Below, one piece after another: positions 13,175-24,720 of a stretch of DNA of 24,768 nt. The notes beneath the pieces were generated by a model, which was not told the origin of the DNA, did no database searches, and was given only the letters and a program-made list of their open reading frames with translations. Positions within the stretch are counted from its first letter, which is position 1. Each line of letters starts with the position of its first letter. The DNA is from Polyangiaceae bacterium (GTDB lineage Bacteria > Myxococcota > Polyangia > Polyangiales > Polyangiaceae). The stretch is taken from contig JAICTU010000070.1 of assembly GCA_025936205.1 (NCBI GenBank), forward strand, positions 1 to 24,768, read 5' to 3'. Both the position numbers and the translations under genes were made by a program.

Positions 13175-14107
13175 TTAGCTGCTGCGGCGCCGCCGGCGCG
13201 TAGACCTGCCGCGCACAAAGAGCAAGAGCCCTGTGCCGATGGCGAGCCCGGTGCCCAGGGGCAGCTTCTCGGGCGGCGCGCCGGGCGCCGAGAGCGCGCA
13301 GCCGCCGTCATCGATGGACTGCACTTCGGCGGGACAGGTCGCGTCGATGCCGACACATTGTCCGCTGCTCGGCTCGACTGAACAGGCGGGGTCCGTGCCC
13401 GACTGCTTCAACGCCTGGCACATGCCGGCGATGTCGTCCGGGGCCGGAAAGCGGTCGAAGCCGTCGTAGGCCGCGCGCATCAGCGCGCCCTTCTGCTGCG
13501 TGTGCGAGAGGCCGAGGAAATGGCCGAGCTCGTGATTCAGCACCAGCCTCAGATCATGCGCGCGAGGCGTGGCGTCCGCGTCATCGAGGTAGAAATCGAA
13601 GTCTCGAGAGTTGATCTCGATGTCGACGTCGAGGATCTCGCCCGTGGCGGTGTTGGCGATGATCGTGGAGAGCGCAATGGTGGTCTCCGGCAGATCACTC
13701 GCCCCATCGCGGAACATCACGATGTTGTCGTTGTCTTCCTTCGCGCCGCAGTTGTACTCGACGCGGTCGCAGCGGGTCAGCCCGCGGTAGCTCGCCGTGA
13801 GCTCCGGGGTCAGGCCGGAGCCGCAGCTCACCTGCGACCAGACCTGAAAGCCGTCCTGGAGTACACCTGCTAGCTGGGCAGCGCTGACCTTCTCTTGCCG
13901 GGAGCCGTCGAGCTGCACGGCAAAGTCCATGCAGCCATTGCCCCAATGCGCGATGGCGCCCCCGGTCCAGCAACCAGCAGCGGCGTCCCAGGTGCACATC
14001 TGAGTGCCGGAAAACTCGCAGGTGTGCGTCTGGCAGAAAGCGGCGGCGGAACGGGGCAGCCCCAGCGCCACGCAGGCCAGCGCCAGCCCGAAGAAGAGTC
14101 GTTGCAT
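13175..14107 (-). CDS. Surface matrixin-like zinc metalloprotease (second of a tandem pair)
   Basis: A 310-residue exported metzincin-type peptidase. The signal peptide (MQRLFFGLALACVALGLPRSAAA) ends before FCQTHTCEF. The zinc site HELGHFLGLSH is at 192-202, with the Met-turn candidate GALM at 207-210. Before it lies the Asp/Glu-rich stretch ILDVDIEINSRDFDF (about 158-172), common to this family. The tail has DDGGC (Cys270), a hydrophobic helix (about 283-298) and a basic end GRSTRRRRRSS, as in MYXO-CTERM sorting tails but with one Cys. ATG 14107 is preferred over the in-frame TTG at 14131; neither has a good Shine-Dalgarno site. It is clearly a paralogue of the gene just upstream. Confidence 0.88.
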   Translation of the reverse strand: MQRLFFGLALACVALGLPRSAAAFCQTHTCEFSGTQMCTWDAAAGCWTGGAIAHWGNGCMDFAVQLDGSRQEKVSAAQLAGVLQDGFQVWSQVSCGSGLTPELTASYRGLTRCDRVEYNCGAKEDNDNIVMFRDGASDLPETTIALSTIIANTATGEILDVDIEINSRDFDFYLDDADATPRAHDLRLVLNHELGHFLGLSHTQQKGALMRAAYDGFDRFPAPDDIAGMCQALKQSGTDPACSVEPSSGQCVGIDATCPAEVQSIDDGGCALSAPGAPPEKLPLGTGLAIGTGLLLFVRGRSTRRRRRSS

Positions 14108-14131
14108 TGGGGAATGCGGGGGTTCCCCCAA
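14107..14131 (-). promoter_or_regulatory. leader stem-loop before the second metalloprotease
   Basis: TTGGGGAA (14107-14114) can pair with TTCCCC-C-AA (14123-14131) with one bulge, or the inner GGGGG/CCCCC tract (14118-14129) can pair instead. It falls exactly where a ribosome site would be, and no Shine-Dalgarno sequence is visible. It might dampen translation of the downstream gene, but it could be chance. Confidence 0.25.
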
Positions 14132-14164
14132 AAACGGAGGTGCGGGAAACGCCCGGGTTTTCGG

Positions 14165-15130
14165 CTATAGCACCGATTGGCGAGCCTGGCTCTTCCGCCG
14201 CAGGACCCACAGACCGAGCCCGAGGGCCCAGCCCCAGGCTACCGGCCCAATGGGCTGCGAGCGCGCCTCGCGACAGCTACAGCCGCCATCGGACTCGGTC
14301 GGGCTGTCCCCGCCGATGGTGCTGCAGTTCGAATCCGATCCGAGGCACTGCGCATCGGAGGCGAGCGGCTCTGCCGAGCACGCCGGATCGCTTCCGCCGC
14401 TCTCGAGCGCCTGGCAGATGCCCGCGCTGTCGTCGCTGGACGGCTCGGTGGTCCCCTCGTACAGCGAGCGCATCAACGCGCCGGTGACTTTGCTGTGCGA
14501 CAGCCCGAGCAGATGCCCCAGCTCGTGGTTGATCACGCCGCGCAGATTCCGGGAGTCCCCCACGACGGCGGGGGCGTCGATGTAGAAGTCCTCGTCCTGA
14601 GAATTGATCTCGATGTCGGCGTCGAAGATCTCGCCGTTCACCAGGTTGGCGGTGACGGTGGTGAGCGCGATCACCCCCGCCTGGAGCGCGGAGTCGCTGC
14701 CGATGCGATCGCGAAACATCACCAGGTTGCTATTCTGATCCCCCGCCATGCAGCTGAACTCGACCTGGTCGCAGGCGATCAGGCCTTGCCGGGCACTGGA
14801 CAGCTGGGGGGTCCCGCCCTGCGGGCAGCGGACGCCGCTCCAGACGCCAAAGCCCTCGTCCAGCAGGTCCGCCACCTGCTGCGCGCTGATCCGCTCCTTG
14901 CGCGAGCCGTCGCGCTGCACGGCGTACGAGATACAGCCCGACTTCCAGTACACGAACTCGCCCTCTTGCGAGCAGCCCGTGCGCGTATCGATCGGGCACT
15001 CGCTGGGCGAGCGGAACTCGCAGGTGCGCGTGCGACAATACGCGCCCGCCTCCCGCGCCGAGGCCAGGCTGAATGCGGCCGCCAACAGCCCAACTCCTAG
15101 CTGACCGCCGACACGCCTGCGCCCATTCAC
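14165..15130 (-). CDS. Surface matrixin-like zinc metalloprotease with MYXO-CTERM tail (first of a pair)
   Basis: A 321-residue exported metzincin-type peptidase. The signal peptide runs through about residue 30 (LGVGLLAAAFSLASAREAGA), followed by YCRTRTCEF. The zinc-binding motif HELGHLLGLSH is at 202-212 with GALM at 217-220. The C-terminus has GGCSCREA (282-289), a hydrophobic helix (about 294-310) and RRKSQAR, a good match to the MYXO-CTERM sorting signal that tethers proteins to the myxobacterial outer surface. Several conserved cysteine pairs flank the catalytic domain. The start is GTG 15130, with GGAGAA 5 nt upstream, and it overlaps the yggS stop by 4 bp (GTGA). The longer open frame would run over yggS. 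Substrate unknown. Confidence 0.9.
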   Translation of the reverse strand: MNGRRRVGGQLGVGLLAAAFSLASAREAGAYCRTRTCEFRSPSECPIDTRTGCSQEGEFVYWKSGCISYAVQRDGSRKERISAQQVADLLDEGFGVWSGVRCPQGGTPQLSSARQGLIACDQVEFSCMAGDQNSNLVMFRDRIGSDSALQAGVIALTTVTANLVNGEIFDADIEINSQDEDFYIDAPAVVGDSRNLRGVINHELGHLLGLSHSKVTGALMRSLYEGTTEPSSDDSAGICQALESGGSDPACSAEPLASDAQCLGSDSNCSTIGGDSPTESDGGCSCREARSQPIGPVAWGWALGLGLWVLRRKSQARQSVL

Positions 15131-15852
15131 GCCCGTTCTCCGAAGATGTCCGTACCGACGCGCACCCAGGTACTGCCACATGCTATCGCCACCTCCAGAT
15201 CGCGGCTCATGCCCAGGCTCAGCTCGGGCAGGCGCGCCACCCCGCCATGCTGCTCGCGCAGCTCCAACAGACGTTCGAATTGCGCCCGCGTGCTCGCAGC
15301 GTCGCCCGACCCCGCCGGAATCGCCATCAGCCCGCGCAAGCTCAAGCTCGGCTGGGCCAGCACCGCGTCGATCAGCCGGGCGAGCTCGGCCGGCTCGCAA
15401 CCGGCCTTTTGTTGCTCACCCAGATTCACCTCGAGGAACACGGCGAGCTCGCCGCCGGGCAGCAACGCGCGCTGCCCAGGCACGGGGCGAGCGCTCGCTC
15501 GCTTCCCGAGCTCCTCGATCAGCCGCACGGAGTCCACGCTGTGCACGGCCGAGATCACGCCGCACAGCCCTGCGACCTTGTTGCGCTGCAGGGCGCCGAT
15601 CATGTGAAAGCGCAAGCCGGGCAGATCAGCGAGCTCCGCTTGCTTCGCGAGCAGCTCCTGCGCATAGTTCTCGCCGAAGTCGCGCTGCCCGGCAGCGTAT
15701 GCCGCGCGGATCTTTTCCGCCGGCTGGCGCTTGGAGACCGCCACCAGCCGCACCTCGCCCGCTGCGCGCCCGCTCTGCTCGGCCGCGCGCCGGATGCGCT
15801 CGCGCACCCTGGCGAGCGCCGGAGCCACCAGCTCCACGCCGGCCGTCGTCAT
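15127..15852 (-). CDS. yggS: PLP homeostasis protein (YggS/PLPBP family)
   Basis: A 241-residue PLP-binding protein with the alanine-racemase-like fold but no known enzyme activity; the family balances vitamin B6 and amino-acid pools. The PLP lysine is Lys41 in LVAVSKRQP. Family signatures follow: FGENYAQELLAK, HMIGALQRNK, VHSVDS, EVNLGEQQKAG, LRGLMAIP, SLGMSRDLEVAIACGSTWVRVGTDIFG. The ATG at 15852 overlaps the stop of the SPOA gene as ATGA, and its stop overlaps the next GTG as GTGA, so it is coupled on both sides. In many bacteria yggS neighbours cell-division or proline genes; here it sits in an envelope/secretion-like run, which is unusual. Confidence 0.95.
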   Translation of the reverse strand: MTTAGVELVAPALARVRERIRRAAEQSGRAAGEVRLVAVSKRQPAEKIRAAYAAGQRDFGENYAQELLAKQAELADLPGLRFHMIGALQRNKVAGLCGVISAVHSVDSVRLIEELGKRASARPVPGQRALLPGGELAVFLEVNLGEQQKAGCEPAELARLIDAVLAQPSLSLRGLMAIPAGSGDAASTRAQFERLLELREQHGGVARLPELSLGMSRDLEVAIACGSTWVRVGTDIFGERA

Positions 15853-16949
15853 GGAGCGACCCGCGCGGCCCCCACCCGGGTGATGCGCACACCGATCTCG
15901 CCGTCGATCTCCACCAGCTCACCGCGTGCGATCTCACGCCCGCCCGTGCGCAAGCTGACCCCGTCCTCCACGCGGCAACCGCTGGCCAGCACATCGCCGG
16001 GGCGCAGCGCCGCCCATTCGGCAGCGCTCATCTCGATCGCTCCGAGCTCCAGCCGCACGACCACGGGCGTCTCGCCGACGACTTGCTCCAGCTCGGACTC
16101 CTGTTGGCTCATCGGAGCTCCCATCTCTTCCGGCAGTACATCCTCCGGCACCGCCACGATTTCGGCACCTAGCACGGTTCGGCCAGCCTGGGCACGAACC
16201 GGAATGCCCCGCCGCGAACGCGGCGGCACCAGCAGGCCCGCCGAGCGCGGTGTTTCCCCGGCTACCCACGCGTCCGCGCCCGGCAGCCACACGTCCCCCG
16301 GAGCGAGACACGACAGGGTGCTGAGCGGCGCGCTCGACAGCGCCGCGACCCAGGGCACACGCAAAGGCAGCGGCCCCAGCCGGCGCAGCTCGGTCGGCGC
16401 GCGCAGTCCCGGCGCCCCCGCCCGCTCCAGCGCGGCGCACGCCGCGACCCGGTAGGGCTTGCCGCCGAGCTGCAGGCTGACGCCCGCGTGCAACAACCAG
16501 CCCGGATCCGCCGGCTCTTCGCTGACCAGCTCCGGAGCCTCGGCGCGCGCCGCGCGCCGTGCCACCTCCAGCGCCAGAGCGGCCCCGGCTCCGCGCAGCG
16601 CGGCATCGATCGCCGTATCGGCCCAGCCGAGCTGGAACTCCTGATCGAGCAAGCGCGCCACGCACGAGCGCCACAGATCGCGCTCCGGTTCGAGCCACAG
16701 CCGCAGCCCATGCACCGGGAAGCGCAGCTCCAGGCATTGCTCGCCGGCGAACGGCACCCCCTCGCGCCGGCAGTCGGTCTGCACCGGGCCGAGCTGCACG
16801 TCGTCGCCCAGCAGCTCGCTCAGGGCGCGCCCGATGCCGCTCCAGTCGAGCGCCGCGTCCACGCGCTGCACGAGCTCCCGCCGCGCTCGCAACGCGGCAC
16901 GCGGCACACGCGGCACGCTGGCCCAGGGAAATGGGGCCAGCTGCGTCAC
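15849..16949 (-). CDS. SPOA-domain protein (SctQ / FliM-FliN-like C-ring component)
   Basis: A 366-residue cytoplasmic protein with two probable SPOA modules. The C-terminal one (about 294-358) is clear: VVVRLELGAIEMSAAEW, LRPGDVLASGC, GGREIARGELVEIDGEIGVRI. A more diverged one lies at about 195-262 (LRVPWVAALS, LAPGDVWLPG, PVRAQAG). In type III secretion and flagella such SctQ/FliN proteins build the cytoplasmic sorting platform or C-ring. The two-module layout and length match SctQ best. No other secretion gene is visible in the window, so this is an orphan here. GTG 16949 overlaps the preceding stop (GTGA) and its own stop overlaps yggS (ATGA). The N-terminal 190 residues match nothing I can name. 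Confidence 0.82.
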   Translation of the reverse strand: MTQLAPFPWASVPRVPRAALRARRELVQRVDAALDWSGIGRALSELLGDDVQLGPVQTDCRREGVPFAGEQCLELRFPVHGLRLWLEPERDLWRSCVARLLDQEFQLGWADTAIDAALRGAGAALALEVARRAARAEAPELVSEEPADPGWLLHAGVSLQLGGKPYRVAACAALERAGAPGLRAPTELRRLGPLPLRVPWVAALSSAPLSTLSCLAPGDVWLPGADAWVAGETPRSAGLLVPPRSRRGIPVRAQAGRTVLGAEIVAVPEDVLPEEMGAPMSQQESELEQVVGETPVVVRLELGAIEMSAAEWAALRPGDVLASGCRVEDGVSLRTGGREIARGELVEIDGEIGVRITRVGAARVAP

Positions 16950-19900
16950 GATCCTCCCCGTGCGGCGGGGGCGCCCGCGTCCCGGCGCAGCACGATGGGT
17001 TGAGAGAGGAGTTGCTCGGCATCGCGCGTGAACTTGGCGAAGCCAGGATAGTCCTCCGGGGCGACCCGTCCGGCGGCGATGGATACCTCGCGATCGAGGA
17101 TCAGCGTGTCACCCTCCACCTTGTCGCGGCTCACCACGCGGTGCTCGCCGTGCTCCAGCTTGCCCTCGCTGGTGCCCCAGACGTGGACGTTCTTCGGCAG
17201 CTGGAAGGTGAGGCGCGAGCTCTGGTGCATGGCCTCAGCGATCAGCAGCGGTGTCTGCCGCGCCGGCAAGGCCGAGAGGCGCGTCAAGCGCGGCATCAGC
17301 GGCGGCTCGATCACCAGGCCCTCCTCGCGCTGCTCGGCGAAGTGCCCGACCACGGCCTGCATCTGCAGCACCAGCGGCGCCTCCACGTCCTCCACGGCAT
17401 CGAACGAAAACTCGACCAGCTCCGCGCCGGGCAGCGCCTGCCCCAGCAAGCGCGACTCCACGACCTCGCGCAGCCGCCCTTCGGGCAGCTGCTTCAGCCC
17501 GGCGCGCAGTTGCATCGCGTACTTGCCGATGAAGCGCTGGCGCAGCGTGATGCGCGCCATCCCGCGCTCCCCGAGCTCGACCGTGCCCTCGTACTCCAGC
17601 CGATCTTGATCGCCTGCCGCGGGCAGGACCACCGGCTTCTGGCCTTCGACCGCGAGCTCGTGCCCGGGCATGCCGCGCGCTTCCACGGGAACGTAGCCAA
17701 AGGGCGCGTAACGCTCCTGCAGCGCGAGCCAGACCGCATCGCTCCCCACCCCCACATGCAGCAGCGGAACGTTGTACGCCTCCGCCTCCGACATCGGTCC
17801 CGGTGCGATGGGTGCCAGCCGATTCTTGACGACGGCGTAGTTGACCGGGATGTCCAGCGCGCGTAGCAGCATGCGCAGCGCCGACCAGCGATTGCCCTGC
17901 TCGCTGGTGAGCACCTTGGGCCCCTCCACCTCCGGCCCGTCCTTCACGTTGTCCTGCACCCAGCGATACGCCTTGCGCGCCTGCGCCAGCGGATCGCTCG
18001 CGGGCGTGTCGCCCACGATCTGTTGCGCCAGCTGGCGGATGCGCGGATCGACGGGCAGCGTGTCGGCGACCTGTTCCGAGAGCAGGCGCAGCCGGCGCTC
18101 GATTCCGTTGCCCCAGCCCACGCGCACGCTGGGCAAGAACTCCTGCACGGGCACGCTGAAGGGCTCGACGGGCGCGGCCGGGCTGCGATCGACGCGCCAG
18201 CGCCGCGTCACGAACAGGCCGTCTCGCTTCAGCTCCGGCTCCGGCACCTGCCCGGTGATCTCGATCTCGAGCGGCCGGTGCTGCGGGGCGATCAGCACGA
18301 ACTCGCTGCGCGCATAGGCCACGTCTTCCTCGCGGAAGAACCAGCGCATGCCGGTGTAGGTGCGCCCGCGTTCCTCGGCCGGCGCGCCCTGCACGTGCTC
18401 GGTCTCGATGTAGTCGCCCACTTCCAGGTGCGGGAAGGTCACCGTCGGCTTGCCGGCGACCTGCTCGGGCTCCAGCGTGCGCCCGTCGCGCTTGATCACG
18501 CGCATGTTCAGCACCAGCCCGCCCAGCGGACGCTGCTCGGCGAACTTGCTGATGGCCTCGTCGCTCTGGATGCGCACGATCTCGTGCTCCAGCATGCGGC
18601 TGGAGCCGTCGGAGTGGACCCACACGGCCGCGTAGTCGAGCACGCGCTCCGCGGTGCCCGACTGGTTGCGCCCGGCGCGCTCGTAGTCGCGGATCACCTG
18701 GCGCCCATCGAGCCGGAACGGCGCGAAGTCGCTGCGCGCCTCGACCGCGTCGATCGCGCGCTCCAGCGGCGCGGTGTCGCTGCCCGCCTGGATGGCGCGC
18801 GCCAGACCCTCGTGCAGCGCCGCGGGATTGCCGGCGCCGAGCCGGAAGTCGGCCAGCGCCAGCTGCGCCGCGCCGCTCTCCGGGTGCTCTTCCACCGAGC
18901 TCAGCAAGAGCGGCTCGCGCGCCGCGCGATCCCCCGAGGACAGCAACACCTCCTGCCGGCGCCGGCGCCACTCCGCGCGCCGGTGCGGCCGCACCTTCTC
19001 CAGGCGATCCAGCTCGGCCAGCGCGGCAGCGTAGTCCCGGTGGCGCAGCGCGCGCTCCAGCAAGGCTTCGCTGCCCGCGTCCAGCGCCGCGCTCTTCTGG
19101 ATCAGCGAGTTTGCGATCTCCGTCTCGCCGCGCTGCTCGTATACGGCCGCGGCGGCGGACAGCGCCGCCGGGTCGGCGAAGCGGCGCCCCATCTCCAGCG
19201 TGACGGCGTTCTGCTCCGGCTTCCAGCCGAGCCGCCCGAGCACCGCGCCCAGCGCGCTCCATACGCCGGGCACCTCTGGAAAGCGCTGCGAGAGCTGGCG
19301 CAGCGGCGCCACGGAATCGGCCATATTTCCGCCGTTGGCCTTGGCCAGCGCGAGCCCGAGCTGCGGCCGCCACAGCCCCGGGTCCTTCTTGGCTGCCGTG
19401 TCCTGCAGCAGACGTGCCCGATCGCTGGCCTCGGTACGGCCCAGGATCGGATCCCCTGCCGTCCATTCGGAGAGATTCATCAGGCTGGGCCCCGTCGCCC
19501 GCGCCTCGGGCTCGGTCAGCGGCGCGATCAGCACGCTGGCGACGTCGTCTTCGCCTTCCAGATGCATCAGCTCCGCCACCAGGAAGCGCGTGGCATCGTC
19601 CATCTCGGCGCGCGCCCCGTCGGGCCCGATGTACTGCATCAGATCATTGGGATCGGGCAGCAGCTGAGGCGCCCCGAGCGCGTAGGGAGCGCCGGCTTCG
19701 GTGCTGGCGCGCGCCACCAGCGGCGTACCGTCGGCGTGCATCGCGCGCAGCAGCGTGCGCGGCTCGCTGAGCCGCGCCAGCACACGATGGCGCCCCGGAG
19801 CGAGCCGCAGCTGAACACCGAAGCGTGCCCATACGCCCCACTCGCGCGGATCGCGGTCGAGCACCAGGCGATCGTCGACCCAGAGCGCGATCGCGCCCTG

Positions 19901-20725
19901 TGCGGCCAGGATCACGTCTTCGCTCTGGTTCAGGTCCAGGTAGGACTCGGCGTAGAACACGCCCGCGGGCTGCGCGTCCTCGGCCATCACCTCGCAGCCC
20001 TCGACGCTGGTCGCCAGCAGCTCCGGAGACGCCCCGCTGGCGGCGTCGATCGGCCAGCGCCGCGGCCATGGCCCCGGCTGCTCGGGCGCGAAGTGACGCT
20101 GCAAATGGACCGGCGCCGGCGAACCGAACGGCCCTGCGAGGCGCAGCGCCGTGATGCAGCCGAGCCGCCCGAGCGACTCGTCGATGCGCGTTTGCCCGCG
20201 CTCCGCCTGCTCGTCGAGCCACCACTGCACGAGCTGCGCGCGCGCGCGCCAACCGATGCCGCGCGGATGCTCAATCAATCTCTCGACGTCGGCGTGCGCC
20301 TGGTCCCAGAGCTCCGGAGCATGGTCCGAGAGGTTCGCGGCCTGGCTGGCGGCAAACCAGGCCAGCAGCCGCGCTTCCGGGCCATCTTCCTGGCTGGCCA
20401 GCTCGAGCGTGCGCACATAGTGCTGGGGCGCGCTCTTCAGCCGGCCGTGCCAGATGTCATCCAGGGCGAGCGCCAGCTCCGCCCAGGCGTGGTCGGGGCC
20501 GTGTTGCTCGAGCCGCTGGCGCGCTTGCTGCGCGCGCCGGGCATCGCCACCGGGAGACAACAGCTCACCCAGCAGCCAGCGCCCGAGCTCCGCATCATCC
20601 GAGCTGTGCTCGGCGTCGCGCCGCAGCTCCGCGATCGGCGTCGCGGGGACGGACCCGGCCCCGTGCGTGCAGCCCATCCCGGCCAGCACAGCAGCCCCCG
20701 CCCAGTACAACAGCCAGCTCTTCAT
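16946..20725 (-). CDS. DUF3857/transglutaminase-like lipoprotein lacking the catalytic triad
   Basis: A 1259-residue exported protein with a signal MKSWLLYWAGAAVLAGMGC (Cys19, an imperfect lipobox). It starts with helical TPR-like repeats, then a beta-rich section (about 180-330), more TPR-like repeats (about 400-690), a DUF3857-like domain (about 690-860), a transglutaminase-like core (about 905-1010) and a C-terminal beta region. Aligning the core with its neighbour encoded at 20722-24642 shows that all three triad residues are gone: the Cys of GDCKDKA is Arg946 in GNRWSAL, the His of FDHAIAYV is Val in YNVPLLHV and the Asp of LYLDGT is Ala in VWLALQ. It is therefore likely a pseudoenzyme with a binding or scaffold role. 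ATG 20725 overlaps the upstream stop (ATGA) and its stop overlaps the SPOA gene (GTGA). Confidence 0.88.
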   Translation of the reverse strand: MKSWLLYWAGAAVLAGMGCTHGAGSVPATPIAELRRDAEHSSDDAELGRWLLGELLSPGGDARRAQQARQRLEQHGPDHAWAELALALDDIWHGRLKSAPQHYVRTLELASQEDGPEARLLAWFAASQAANLSDHAPELWDQAHADVERLIEHPRGIGWRARAQLVQWWLDEQAERGQTRIDESLGRLGCITALRLAGPFGSPAPVHLQRHFAPEQPGPWPRRWPIDAASGASPELLATSVEGCEVMAEDAQPAGVFYAESYLDLNQSEDVILAAQGAIALWVDDRLVLDRDPREWGVWARFGVQLRLAPGRHRVLARLSEPRTLLRAMHADGTPLVARASTEAGAPYALGAPQLLPDPNDLMQYIGPDGARAEMDDATRFLVAELMHLEGEDDVASVLIAPLTEPEARATGPSLMNLSEWTAGDPILGRTEASDRARLLQDTAAKKDPGLWRPQLGLALAKANGGNMADSVAPLRQLSQRFPEVPGVWSALGAVLGRLGWKPEQNAVTLEMGRRFADPAALSAAAAVYEQRGETEIANSLIQKSAALDAGSEALLERALRHRDYAAALAELDRLEKVRPHRRAEWRRRRQEVLLSSGDRAAREPLLLSSVEEHPESGAAQLALADFRLGAGNPAALHEGLARAIQAGSDTAPLERAIDAVEARSDFAPFRLDGRQVIRDYERAGRNQSGTAERVLDYAAVWVHSDGSSRMLEHEIVRIQSDEAISKFAEQRPLGGLVLNMRVIKRDGRTLEPEQVAGKPTVTFPHLEVGDYIETEHVQGAPAEERGRTYTGMRWFFREEDVAYARSEFVLIAPQHRPLEIEITGQVPEPELKRDGLFVTRRWRVDRSPAAPVEPFSVPVQEFLPSVRVGWGNGIERRLRLLSEQVADTLPVDPRIRQLAQQIVGDTPASDPLAQARKAYRWVQDNVKDGPEVEGPKVLTSEQGNRWSALRMLLRALDIPVNYAVVKNRLAPIAPGPMSEAEAYNVPLLHVGVGSDAVWLALQERYAPFGYVPVEARGMPGHELAVEGQKPVVLPAAGDQDRLEYEGTVELGERGMARITLRQRFIGKYAMQLRAGLKQLPEGRLREVVESRLLGQALPGAELVEFSFDAVEDVEAPLVLQMQAVVGHFAEQREEGLVIEPPLMPRLTRLSALPARQTPLLIAEAMHQSSRLTFQLPKNVHVWGTSEGKLEHGEHRVVSRDKVEGDTLILDREVSIAAGRVAPEDYPGFAKFTRDAEQLLSQPIVLRRDAGAPAARGGS

Positions 20726-23700
20726 CGCGCGTGCGTTCCCAGCACCAGCCGCTGTTCGAAGGCTGCGTCGACCTGCTGGCAGAAGCGGCGAAAATCCGCA
20801 TAGCTCTTGGGGCTCACCCGCGACACCTTCAGCGCGAGCGTGCTGTGCACCCGGACCTCGGCGGAGTCGGCGCTCACCTCGACGCTGTAGCGACCGAACG
20901 GCGTGTCCAGCTGCTCCGGCTTCGGCAGGCCGAGCACGGTATGGCCGGCGCCCAGCTGGACCACGAAGGTCTCGTCGAGGCTGGGAAAGGAACCGATATC
21001 CACGTCCAGATCCCTGCGCGGCAGGCTGGCGTAGGTCTGCCCGAGCCGCTCGCCCGGCGTCACGACCAGGCTCCGCGTGCTGCCCTCTTCACGCAACAAG
21101 TGCGGCGAGCGCGCCCGCACCTGCACGCTCACCGGCTGCTCGAAGTTCGTCAGATCGCTCATCTGCACCGCCCCCGCGCCCTCGACCAGCTCGATCGCCG
21201 GCCACTCCCTCGCCAGGTCCTCCTGCACGCGCGCGCGGCGCGTCGCCTCCGCGGAGTAGCGGCGCCGCCAGGCGGGGGCGCTGGCGCCCTTGGTCTCGTA
21301 GCGCAGCTCGATCTCCGCGCCGCCGTTCGCGCCGAGCCGCAGCTCCACCTCGCGCTTCTTCACGTTCCGAGCGGGATCGTTGTCGGGCAACGTGACCAGC
21401 TTGGCGTCGCCCGCGTTGACGCGCAGCGCGAGCGCCCCTTGATCCATCGACGGCAGCTCCGTCGAACCGGTGAACTCCGCGGTACCGTCGAGATACAGAT
21501 CGAGCTCCGGCACGTAAGCGATGGCGTGATCGAACGGCGCCAGGCTGGCCACCTCCGAACGGAAGCGCCCGCGCAAGCCGGTGCGCACCAGCACCATGGT
21601 CGCGGGTACGCCCAGCTCCTGCAGCATGGCCACGATCACTGCCGCCTTGTCCTTGCAGTCGCCCCAGCCGCGCGACACGGTCTGCACGGCGCGGCGCGGC
21701 TTGAAGCCGTAAATGCCGAACTCCAGCGCCACGTAGCGCGTGTTCTTGACCACCCAGTTGTACACCGCCTCGACCTTGGCGCGCGGGGTCGTCGCGCCCT
21801 GCGCGATGCGATGCACCAGCTCGCGCGTCGCACCGTCCAGCTCCAGCTGATCGCGGCTCAGCCCCCAGTACCAGGAGCCCAGATCGCGATACGAAGGATA
21901 GGTCGATACGTGCACGAAGCCGAGCACCTCGGACCAGGGCGGCATGGCCGGCTCGGGCTCGATTCCCGGCACGCTATCCGCCTGGAAGCTGTAGACGCGC
22001 TCCGCCCCACGCTCCTCGACCTTCTGCTGCAGCTGGGGGACGCGCTGCGTGTCCACGTACAGCCGGCGCTCCTTGGGCACGATCACCACGTACTCGGCGT
22101 GACCGACCGGTGCTTCCGACTGGAGATACTCGAGCTCGCCGAAGTAACTCGCGAACTCGCCGCGCTCGCCGGTGTCGTCCACCCGGTATTGCAACTCGAC
22201 CACGTCGCCCGGTTCGAGCCGCGGAAACTGTACGTAGACGGTGCGAGCCGACGTGTACATCGACAGCTCGGGGTTGTCCGCCGGCCCTTCCCCGCTGTCG
22301 ACGGCCTCGTCGATGTTGCCTGCCGCGCGGTACACGCGCGCGCCGCGCAGCTGAGCGCGCTGGCGGTCCGCCTGGAACGTGAAGGCATACTGGCGCGCCA
22401 CCGCCGCCCCCGCGTCCGTCAGCGGCTGGAACACGATCTGCCGGAACTGCCCGGCCAGGCCGTTCTCATAGACGTGCGTGACCGTCAGATCGAGCAGCGT
22501 CCGCCGGTGCTGCCCGGGCGCCGCGTCGAACCGGTGCGCGAGAAAGCGCTCCGGCTTCCAGGCGTACGTCTCGTCGACCCGATCGACCGACGGCTCCAGC
22601 GCGGCCACGTACTGGCGCACCTCGTTGTCCTCCGGCGTCAGGCCGAGCACGCGCCGCAACAGGCCGATCTGCGCTTCCTTGTGACCGAGATCGCCCTGCA
22701 GGTCGCTCAGCTCGCGCAGCGCATCCACGTCATCGGGGGCGAGCGCGAGGCCGCGGTCGAAGCCGGCGAGGGCGCGCTCGCTGTCGCCCAGCTGACGCCA
22801 GGCGTGCGCGGCGATGCTGTTGGCCCAGGTGCTGTCGGGCGAGAGTTGCAGCAGGCGCCCAGCCCAGTGCTCCGCCGCCCGCCGGTCCCCCCCCTGCACC
22901 CCGAGCTGCAGCGAATCCACGAGCGGGCCGTGATCGTCGAAGCGCAGCGCCGAGTAGAGCGACTCCACGCTGCGCGCCCGCTCCGACTCGCCGAGCTCGG
23001 CCAGGCCCGAAGCCACCATGTTGAGCAGCGCGACGGCGTGCGGGCTGCGCTCCAGCGCGCGCTCGACCGAGGCGAGCGCGCTGTGCTTCAACCCGGCACC
23101 GTCGTAGATGCGCGCCCGGCCCGACAGCGCGCGAACGTCGTCCGGATCCAGCGCGAGCAGCTGCTCGTACACGGGTAGCGCCGCGCGCGGATTGACGCCC
23201 TGCTCCAGCTGGCGCGCCTCGGCGAGCAACAGCTCCTCCAGGTTTCGGCGCTGCTCGCGCGCCGGCGAGCGCGGCAGCTCGGCCCGGGCTCGCTCGAGCC
23301 AGCGCGCCTGATCGTTGCGGTCTTCCGCCAGCTCGGCGGCGAGCAGCAGGCGGCGTACGGTGGGCGCCGCCGCGGCCGCGGCATGGGCCAGGTTGCGCGC
23401 CTGGTGCGTGGTGGGATCGTCGCCGTCGCTGATCACCAGGTAGCGGGCGAAGGCTTCACGCTGCGCGGGGCTGGCGTTCGCGCCCTTGGTCTCGCGCTCG
23501 AACCAATCGAGCGGGCCGACGGCATTCGCCGGGGGCGGCGCGGACGAGCCCGCGGCGACCTTGCTCAGCGTGTTGCCGTCGGCATGCCAGCGCAGCTTGG
23601 GATCGGGCGCGCCACTCGGGTCCGCCAGCCGCAGCGAGAGCATCGGCGCCGAGTCATCACTGCAGATCTTGATCAGGAGTCGATTTTCACCCGGCTCGAG

Positions 23701-24642
23701 CCAGACCGGCGCCGACCGCCGATCAAAGTCGTGACCGCGGTAGGCGACGTCGTGCGCGCGCTCCTGGCCGTTCCAGAACAACCGATAGGCGCCGCGTGCA
23801 CCCACCCAGAGACTGATCGGGCGCCGCCGCTTCAGCTCCGGATCGCTGACGTAGGTAGCGAAGAAGGCGCACATCTGCTGACGAGGCCGAAGCAAGGCGC
23901 CTGCGTCCACCCATCCATACGGGAACGCAGGCGGCACCACGCGCCAGCGAACTTGCCGACCGTCCTTGCCCGGGTAGCCCCGGCCCCAGGCGATAGGTTC
24001 AGCCAGTTCAGGTTCCGGACCCTGCGGGACGTCGAAGCCCGACTTGCCGGTGTTGTCGAAGGGCCCGAGCACCAACCACTGATCGACGTAGCCCAGGGCT
24101 CGGATCTGGGTCTCGGCCGCTTTGTTGTCTCCCCGGCGGAGCCTTGCATAAGCGACGAGCAGCTCGGCGTAGGCGCGCAGAGGGGCCGGCGACCGGCGAT
24201 CGACGCTGGCTTCGTGCAACGCCTCCTCAACTTGAGCCGGTTCCGCCCGATCCCACGTCTGCCAGAGTTCGCGCAGGGCAGTGTATGCGGGGCCTCCGCT
24301 GGAGCGGGACCAATCCGCGAGGGCTCGCTCCAGATCCGGGTGGAAAAACGCACCACCCTGGTAGTCAATGGGTGGTTCCGGCAGGGGGTGCGAGGCGGCC
24401 CCCGAAGAATCTGTTACCGGCGCGGCTTCGGCGATAGGAGGGGCAGGAGGTGGCTCGGAAGATGAAGGTCGGAGTGAGAGGGATGAAGCGGGAGAAGTTG
24501 CGCCCGGAGCAGGCGGTCGGTGCGTGGGGCGTTCCGGCGGACTGGGCGGCGCTCCCCACGCGGTGCTTACGCACAGACCCAGCACGGCCGTCAATAGGGG
24601 AACCAGCCTCCGGCTGTTGCCACGCCTTGGAATCAGGCCCAC
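20722..24642 (-). CDS. Exported DUF3857/transglutaminase-like protein with intact catalytic triad
   Basis: A 1306-residue protein, first gene of the long operon. A signal peptide (LVPLLTAVLGLCVSTAWGA) is followed by a Pro/Ser-rich stretch, a lectin/PA14-like beta region (about 187-344, including YRLFWNGQERAHDV), TPR repeats (about 464-664), a DUF3857 domain (about 714-897), a transglutaminase core and a C-terminal beta region. The triad is complete: Cys996 in WGDCKDKA, His1039 in FDHAIAYV and Asp1052 in LYLDGTAEF. Such cores act as cysteine proteases, amidases or cross-linkers; the substrate is unknown. I prefer GTG 24642, with a purine-rich GAAGAG upstream and a clean signal peptide. The frame is open to GTG 24693 and ATG 24690, but those codons have poor G/C bias and no ribosome site. 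Confidence 0.88.
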   Translation of the reverse strand: MGLIPRRGNSRRLVPLLTAVLGLCVSTAWGAPPSPPERPTHRPPAPGATSPASSLSLRPSSSEPPPAPPIAEAAPVTDSSGAASHPLPEPPIDYQGGAFFHPDLERALADWSRSSGGPAYTALRELWQTWDRAEPAQVEEALHEASVDRRSPAPLRAYAELLVAYARLRRGDNKAAETQIRALGYVDQWLVLGPFDNTGKSGFDVPQGPEPELAEPIAWGRGYPGKDGRQVRWRVVPPAFPYGWVDAGALLRPRQQMCAFFATYVSDPELKRRRPISLWVGARGAYRLFWNGQERAHDVAYRGHDFDRRSAPVWLEPGENRLLIKICSDDSAPMLSLRLADPSGAPDPKLRWHADGNTLSKVAAGSSAPPPANAVGPLDWFERETKGANASPAQREAFARYLVISDGDDPTTHQARNLAHAAAAAAPTVRRLLLAAELAEDRNDQARWLERARAELPRSPAREQRRNLEELLLAEARQLEQGVNPRAALPVYEQLLALDPDDVRALSGRARIYDGAGLKHSALASVERALERSPHAVALLNMVASGLAELGESERARSVESLYSALRFDDHGPLVDSLQLGVQGGDRRAAEHWAGRLLQLSPDSTWANSIAAHAWRQLGDSERALAGFDRGLALAPDDVDALRELSDLQGDLGHKEAQIGLLRRVLGLTPEDNEVRQYVAALEPSVDRVDETYAWKPERFLAHRFDAAPGQHRRTLLDLTVTHVYENGLAGQFRQIVFQPLTDAGAAVARQYAFTFQADRQRAQLRGARVYRAAGNIDEAVDSGEGPADNPELSMYTSARTVYVQFPRLEPGDVVELQYRVDDTGERGEFASYFGELEYLQSEAPVGHAEYVVIVPKERRLYVDTQRVPQLQQKVEERGAERVYSFQADSVPGIEPEPAMPPWSEVLGFVHVSTYPSYRDLGSWYWGLSRDQLELDGATRELVHRIAQGATTPRAKVEAVYNWVVKNTRYVALEFGIYGFKPRRAVQTVSRGWGDCKDKAAVIVAMLQELGVPATMVLVRTGLRGRFRSEVASLAPFDHAIAYVPELDLYLDGTAEFTGSTELPSMDQGALALRVNAGDAKLVTLPDNDPARNVKKREVELRLGANGGAEIELRYETKGASAPAWRRRYSAEATRRARVQEDLAREWPAIELVEGAGAVQMSDLTNFEQPVSVQVRARSPHLLREEGSTRSLVVTPGERLGQTYASLPRRDLDVDIGSFPSLDETFVVQLGAGHTVLGLPKPEQLDTPFGRYSVEVSADSAEVRVHSTLALKVSRVSPKSYADFRRFCQQVDAAFEQRLVLGTHAR

Positions 24643-24720
24643 AGGTTCTCTTCTTGCGCGAACTCGAAGAAACGGGAAGCATGAAAACATCACGCGCGCG
24701 GAGCTTATGCATCCCGACCG

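Follow-up and report, generated by a model that had tools for sequence, protein, structure and literature searches.

We analysed a 24,768-nucleotide stretch of DNA from a Polyangiaceae bacterium (contig JAICTU010000070.1 of assembly GCA_025936205.1), referred to here as the window. Its minus strand carries a run of five genes, the third of which encodes an orphan SPOA protein (W3). This protein is most likely the SctQ subunit of a non-flagellar type III secretion system (T3SS) with core genes dispersed across the chromosome, a reading to which we assign a probability of roughly 0.87, and its gene is called sctQ below. The five genes, the domains of the SPOA protein and a predicted short product are as follows.

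20722..24693, minus strand: TG1 (W1), with TPR, DUF3857 and transglutaminase domains and a Cys-His-Asp triad (C1013, H1056, D1069)
16946..20725, minus strand: TG2 (W2), with a lipoprotein-like N-terminus (judged by eye) and a DUF3857/transglutaminase/DUF3858 fold without catalytic Cys
15849..16949, minus strand: sctQ (W3), the orphan SPOA protein of 366 amino acids (aa), with a CheC/FliM-middle-like domain, SPOA1 and SPOA2
16425..16949 (approximate), minus strand: FliM-middle/CheC-like domain, SctQ residues 1-175, from the AlphaFold model and Foldseek
16164..16397 (approximate), minus strand: SPOA1, SctQ residues 185-262, from the match to 4yxc/4yxb (E 2.0e-8 and 2.4e-8)
15870..16082, minus strand: SPOA2 (FliMN_C), SctQ residues 290-360, Pfam PF01052 at 52.1 bits
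15849..16112, minus strand: predicted SctQ-C, 87 aa, from an internal ATG at 16112-16110 with GGGAG at 16122-16118
15127..15852, minus strand: yggS (W4), pyridoxal phosphate homeostasis family, TIGR00044 at 176 bits, overlapping sctQ
14165..15130, minus strand: exported metalloprotease (W5), M10/matrixin-type, with an HExxHxxxxxH motif

The genes are joined by four 4-bp stop/start overlaps, located where a preliminary description of the window had put them (ATGA at 20725-20722, GTGA at 16949-16946, ATGA at 15852-15849 and GTGA at 15130-15127), and an SctQ-like protein does share an operon-like arrangement with exported DUF3857 proteins. The domain names proposed for W1, W3, W4 (a YggS equivalog) and W5 (matrixin) were borne out by Pfam and NCBIfam. 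The nearest relative, locus L001 of genome G001 (Polyangiaceae metagenome-assembled genome TY_HY_2_bin.41), keeps all five genes and all four overlaps, with proteins 60-76% identical to those of the window in the best tblastn segments. Since all four overlaps recur in L001, they are more than chance. Four-base overlaps are frequent in bacterial operons and are therefore a sign of coupling, not of function. None of the other T3SS parts was found in the window, as had been claimed.

The SPOA protein and its likeness to SctQ

The two-module architecture first proposed for W3 was recovered: the protein has two SPOA domains, the last of them FliN-like. The FliMN_C match in Pfam spans residues 291-359, and the SPOA2 sequence matches YscQ-C and FliN in the PDB; SPOA1 has no Pfam match of its own and was placed by structure prediction only. 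The AlphaFold model (mean predicted local distance difference test score, pLDDT, 82.9; predicted template modelling score 0.63) gave as its best Foldseek match a FliM(SPOA)::FliN fusion (4yxc/4yxb, E 2e-8). It also matched FliM-middle/CheC-like structures (4gc8, 2hp7, 4fq0 and 4hyn, E 1.7e-5 to 4.7e-4), the range of residues 1-175 being read from the secondary structure of the model. Judged by this model, W3 most likely has the plan of SctQ, namely a FliM-middle/CheC-like domain together with two SPOA domains.

Among curated models, W3 resembles SctQ more than it does FliM or FliN. The best NCBIfam model for the window protein is SctQ TIGR02551 (81.1 bits, as compared to 34.5 for FliN and 27.5 for FliM). 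The orthologue at locus L053 scored 73.8 bits with the same model (FliN 52.3, FliM 30.7), and the divergent orthologue at L089 reached 114.1 bits, above the cut-off (FliN 53.3, FliM 31.3). With the SctQ proteins of known systems (YscQ, Spa33, SpaO, HrcQ), W3 shares a FliM-middle-like domain and two SPOA domains in one chain; it may also have an internal start, which would yield a C-terminal product with SPOA2. It differs from them in scoring below the NCBIfam SctQ cut-off and in that its gene lies outside a T3SS cluster, within an envelope/housekeeping operon. Spa33 has been described as corresponding to a FliM-FliN fusion together with a free FliN (McDowell et al., PMC4832279).

The predicted SctQ-C would start at M280, a residue nearly invariant among 54 homologues in a first alignment, though the linker (residues 271-288) is of low confidence in the model. 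After a second, gappy alignment of the loci, the linker was re-anchored at the SPOA2 proline. The linker test then covered 52 genes (51 loci and the window), leaving out one gene of at least 430 aa and nine that had escaped gene calling or clustering. In 32 of the 52 genes, the 38-codon linker holds an in-frame ATG preceded by a Shine-Dalgarno match of at least 4, against 112 of 2427 control windows; with a match of at least 5, the counts were 18 of 52 and 16 of 2427. An ATG lies somewhere in the linker of 48 of the 52. In 300 synonymous shuffles, the means for the two thresholds were 24.2 and 11.8 (maxima 30 and 17), and not one shuffle reached 32. Because the shuffle mean is 24.2, much of this signal lies at the amino-acid level, and codon choice adds to it but does not make it. 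The linker ATG of L001 itself falls below the Shine-Dalgarno threshold. On the sequence of the window, an 87-aa SctQ-C from an internal start is a possible product, predicted here and not counted as proven.

Type III genes scattered in related genomes

The W3 search over 183 genomes of the order of G001 gave a match in 126. For the other type III genes, we chose 24 genomes of the order for having the SPOA protein (SctV is also present in 22), a sample that is not random. Matches were sorted into flagellar and non-flagellar ones by us, on bit score and place. NCBIfam supports this sorting for the 12 proteins scanned (SctV 4, SctR 2, SctJ 2, SctU 2, SctN 2) and for flagellar FlhA. Non-flagellar-type SctR, SctT and the SPOA orphan were present in all 24 genomes, SctJ, SctN and SctU in 23 each and SctV in 22. 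All seven core genes (Q, V, R, J, U, T, N) were found in 22 genomes, the incomplete sets being those of G081 (no SctV or SctU) and G135 (no SctV, SctJ or SctN). Since the relatives encode non-flagellar SctV, R, J, U, T and N elsewhere, the parts missing from the neighbourhood of sctQ do exist elsewhere. In the model comparison, SctV proteins scored 591.7-681.5 with the SctV model against 536.3-586.6 with FlhA, SctJ 142-151 against 37-47 with FliF, SctN 572-585 against 553-560 with FliI, and SctU 190.5/253.6 against 182.3/235.0 with FlhB, the last a narrow margin; SctR passes the yscR model. G001 holds FlhA (contig C82) and a separate SctV-type gene (C422), and its three SPOA matches are a FliM-type and a FliN-type protein on the flagellar contig (L006), plus the orphan.

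The genes lie far apart. Across 131 same-contig pairs, the closest two are separated by 24 kb (V and U in G064), followed by 26 kb (R and Q in G119). Five genomes carry all seven genes on one chromosome-size contig (G146, G147, G148, G181, G182); there the closest pair is 52-153 kb apart, and 20-42% of random seven-point sets are as close or closer. The closest-pair spacing in these five genomes is what randomly placed points would commonly give. No SPOA gene lies in any of the 20 fetched SctV neighbourhoods. The solitary sctV has a setting of its own, mostly next to a gene resembling protein phosphatases and a conserved one resembling permeases (L097-L107, L109, L112, L113, L116, L120; names from sequence starts).

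Eleven of the 24 genomes are non-flagellate (G147, G148, G146, G085, G094, G078, G119, G181, G182, G128, G077), with one FliP/SctR match, one YscJ/FliF match and no flagellar set, and the orphan is the sole SPOA match in ten of them. Genome G147 has a second small SPOA protein (a 157-aa open frame at C1:2033489), perhaps a free FliN-like partner. In the genomes examined, the orphan is the best, and mostly the only, candidate for SctQ.

Over the whole order, FHIPEP was found in 141 of the 183 genomes, and a SPOA match accompanied it in 121 of these, as compared to 5 of the 42 FHIPEP-negative genomes. Genomes with a single FHIPEP match were classed by us from the W3 and FHIPEP searches, the class being inferred from bit score. 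With one full-length match of 684-785 bits (SctV-like), a SPOA protein was present in 12 of 12 genomes (frames of 386-697 aa). With one match of at least 797 bits (FlhA-like), an orphan-type SPOA protein was present in 2 of 18, namely G081 and G135, both of which hold other non-flagellar sct genes; G065, G066, G067 and G132 in this class have only short or flagellum-linked FliN-like matches.

Directly upstream of sctR, a protein of 105-164 aa is encoded in 8 of the 10 fetched sctR loci (L123-L126, L129-L132), all ten of which come from genomes without a flagellar set. Its gene overlaps sctR by 4 bp in four loci, and the sctR loci of G181 and G182 lack such an upstream gene. All four of these proteins that were scanned (from G148, G085, G078 and G128) pass the Pfam FliO model PF04347 (38.7-54.7 bits, cut-off 22), and the one scanned by NCBIfam scored 54.8 against the 55.25 cut-off of its FliO model. 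A 2021 review states that virulence T3SS had yielded no homologue of FliO (PMC7911332). The retained FliO is the most surprising detail of the proposed scattered system.

Several observations weigh against assigning the orphan to a scattered T3SS. The SctQ proteins of the window (81.1 bits) and L053 (73.8 bits) lie below the TIGR02551 cut-off of 100.8 bits, which is a naming threshold and not a biological property. The scanned SctV, SctJ, SctN and SctU proteins also all fall below their NCBIfam cut-offs, SctU is nearly as close to FlhB, and the SctU and SctT of G064 score like flagellar ones. In the second, gappy alignment, Met occupies the M280 column in only 6 of 52 rows. A single-sequence FliQ (SctS) search, confined to the fetched loci, matched only the flagellar contig and L002. 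A SPOA match occurs without FHIPEP in G005, G014, G030, G105 and G174, and a second-type, partial or unclear FHIPEP match occurs without SPOA in G003, G015, G016, G049, G073, G074, G133 and G157; incompleteness of these mismatched genomes is possible. Finally, co-presence with the other sct genes is a result for the relatives and not for the window's own genome. The preliminary description had suggested looking for further sct genes elsewhere in that genome; SctV, R, J, U, T and N were found in the relatives, apart from one another. It had also named a type III system without its own sctQ as a finding that would speak against its proposal, and the relatives show, in spirit, such a system.

The neighbourhood of sctQ and the rival explanations

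Loci around sctQ were examined in 61 of the 126 W3-positive genomes (60 fetched loci and L001), stretches that end at contig ends being scored as misses. The five-gene order held in L001, where it is identical, and did not hold as a unit beyond it: the metalloprotease is a neighbour at 1 of 61 loci (L001 only), and YggS is encoded within the stretch retrieved for 22 of them. TG1 or TG2 was present at 32 of the 61 loci and both at 29. The only 4-bp overlaps to recur widely among the relatives are those from TG1 to TG2 and from SctQ to a small lipoprotein; the overlap from TG2 to SctQ occurs in the window, L001, L053, L059 and L070, and that from SctQ to YggS in the window and L001 only. The linkage of the TG pair with sctQ is old and common, and it is not needed. 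In a second group of loci, sctQ stands with CtaA/CtaB-like, SCO-like and thymidylate-kinase-like genes (named from sequence starts).

The pair itself had been described as two transglutaminase proteins. Both are DUF3857 proteins: W1 has Pfam matches to TPR, DUF3857 and Transglut_core, with DUF3858 below the cut-off, and W2 a weak match to DUF3857 (23.2 bits, cut-off 24.6). In an alignment of 30 TG1 rows, the catalytic Cys is present in 28 (2 gaps), His in 28 (2 gaps) and Asp in 29 (1 gap), and all 30 rows printed of the 33 aligned TG2 sequences lack a Cys at the corresponding place (by eye). Because W2 lacks this residue, TG1 is likely an active enzyme and TG2 its catalytically dead homologue. 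Residues 640-1259 of TG2 were modelled with a pLDDT of 90.7 and matched 3kd4 (E 1.7e-26), which we take to be a DUF3857/DUF3858 structure. The C-terminal half of TG2 shares the fold of this transglutaminase-like protein, BDI_1141; TG2 differs in its missing catalytic Cys and its long N-terminal region. The dead TG2 is kept beside its active homologue in many genomes of the order.

The preliminary description had gone further and proposed an undescribed envelope or secretion system, in which the SctQ-like ring protein works with TG1 and TG2 (and YggS and the metalloprotease) and not with T3SS parts. We consider such a system improbable. It would account for the presence of TG1 or TG2 at 32 of the 61 loci, for the overlap from TG2 to sctQ in two distant groups (window/L001 and L053/L059/L070) and for the finding that, where sctQ is located elsewhere, all 6 of 6 T3SS-positive genomes have TG2 adjacent to TG1, as compared to 2 of 24 genomes without a non-flagellar T3SS (one of the 24, G170, ends 0.5 kb past TG1). 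However, TG1, matched in 164 of the 183 genomes, is kept at 677-818 bits in 17 genomes with neither FHIPEP nor SPOA match, and in G182 and G048 the sctQ gene is not located with the TG pair. In a TG1 tree of 45 rows built with a quick method, the 16 T3SS-less genomes without an adjacent TG2 form one clade (Shimodaira-Hasegawa-like approximate likelihood ratio test 99), and G132 and G134 keep the TG1-TG2 pair without a detected non-flagellar T3SS. Protein P0208 of Polyangium spumosum is a true TG2 (1637 bits to the TG2 profile), and its contig of 940,626 bp is, we infer, G154:C3, from a genome without T3SS match. On account of the single clade, G132/G134 and P0208, we rejected TG2 as a T3SS-specific partner, a role that its apparent co-loss had brought up. 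Since the T3SS-less cases form one clade and P0208 probably comes from a T3SS-less genome, TG1-TG2 is a conserved module of its own. With TG1 in 17 genomes devoid of FHIPEP and SPOA and TG2 in at least one, and with the other non-flagellar T3SS parts encoded elsewhere in relatives, the proposed joint function is unsupported.

It is very improbable that the orphan is an alternative FliM/FliN-type protein of the flagellar C-ring. Such a protein would fit the 13 of 24 genomes, including G001, that also hold flagellar FliM+FliN-type matches, and the resemblance of SPOA2 to FliN, but the orphan occurs in the 11 of 24 genomes without a flagellar FliP, FliF or FliM/FliN set, and the SctQ model outscores those of FliN and FliM. 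There is similarly little chance that the genes are the non-functional remains of a T3SS that was lost, in decay and moving ever further apart, as their scattering, the lack of a cluster and the scores below cut-offs would allow and as certain Myxococcus loci were once called (PMC3459982): all seven genes are kept in 22 of the 24 chosen genomes, 52 uninterrupted sctQ genes were called, sctQ has a possible internal start, and its ratio of nonsynonymous to synonymous substitution rates against L001 is 0.40, near the 0.24-0.35 of its neighbours.

Other genes recur at these loci. A small lipoprotein family (fam2) was matched in 41 of the 60 SctQ loci (L037-L081); where called, it adjoins sctQ, often with a 4-bp overlap, and neither of two scanned members has a Pfam match. 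In the window and L001, no gene, and hence no fam2 member, lies between sctQ and yggS. A small lipoprotein also lies near sctQ in most of L083, L086-L091 and L094, the group without TG1/TG2 linkage; its one scanned member has a weak PDZ match below the cut-off. That fam2 and this PDZ-like lipoprotein (fam20) form one family was ruled out (hhalign probability 1.4). MglB (Roadblock), at times with the MglA GTPase, is encoded divergently upstream of TG1 with or without a T3SS (L001:203-670, L037-L041, L043, L049, L076; TG1 loci L164, L169, L173, L175, L176, L182). Because MglB also stands beside TG1 in T3SS-less loci, it goes with TG1 and not with SctQ, and a link of MglA/MglB to SctQ was ruled out. 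At 13175-15130, the window holds two metzincin-type proteases in tandem, the first with a Cys-rich, hydrophobic and basic C-terminal tail that resembles a MYXO-CTERM signal; this protease has a weak match (62.6 bits, cut-off 250) to a family of myxosortase-dependent proteins.

A probable scattered secretion system in Polyangiales

In injectisomes, SctQ forms the pods of the sorting platform with SctQ-C as the counterpart of free FliN, SctN is the ATPase, SctRTUV make up the gate and SctJ a ring. By analogy, full-length SctQ and the internally started 87-aa SctQ-C would form sorting-platform pods, like Spa33-FL and Spa33-C of Shigella, and these pods with SctN would feed substrates to an SctRSTUV gate on the SctJ ring. 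The TG1-TG2-yggS operon would supply sctQ transcription; a place in this operon does not on its own show that the products work as one machine. The needle-less T3SS* of Myxococcus, in which the same parts are clustered and both secretin and needle are lacking, is required for the lysis of prey (PMC10433427, PMC12075869); by analogy, the system plausibly acts when cells meet prey or neighbours. Like the Myxo non-flagellar T3SS of Cystobacterineae and the T3SS* of Myxococcus xanthus (MXAN_2434-2464), the proposed system belongs to Myxococcota and comprises non-flagellar Q, V, R, J, U, T and N (PMC10433427, PMC3459982). Those are clustered loci, whereas in Polyangiales the seven genes lie far apart. 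Chlamydiales also have a scattered non-flagellar T3SS, with its core genes split among at least four loci, three of them with core genes (PMC3459982); scattering in Polyangiales is more extreme, no two of the seven genes lying within 24 kb on one contig in the 24 genomes.

Polyangia have been noted to encode multiple copies of sctV and sctR (PMC11509652), so the genes themselves are not unseen. In the literature within our reach, which excluded most subscription papers, we found in print no scattered T3SS of Polyangiales, no account of the sctQ location or the FliO-sctR pairing, and nothing on DUF3857 with transglutaminase. What is new here is most likely the unusual genomic form (the scattering, the location of sctQ and the FliO pairing) of a known kind of machine. 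The Myxo group was described from Cystobacterineae by Abby and Rocha (PMC3459982), and a survey of 17 genomes located the T3SS of myxobacteria chiefly within the order Myxococcales (PMC10196010). Surveys resting on clusters or on the Myxococcus pattern can miss a scattered system.

More tentatively, and with odds somewhat short of even, Polyangiales may possess a working, early-branching non-flagellar T3SS fully dissolved into single-gene loci and still using FliO to assemble the SctR pore. Such a system, built without an operon of its own, would be a living intermediate that stands between the flagellum and the injectisome. If so, each gene would be kept in its own housekeeping neighbourhood. 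A FliO homologue adjoining a non-flagellar sctR is relevant to the origin of the injectisome from the flagellum, and a scattered machine would challenge the idea that a multi-protein export gate requires clustered genes for its assembly. Overall, the assignment of the orphan as SctQ of a scattered T3SS predicts a protein-export machine in many myxobacteria that have no flagellum.

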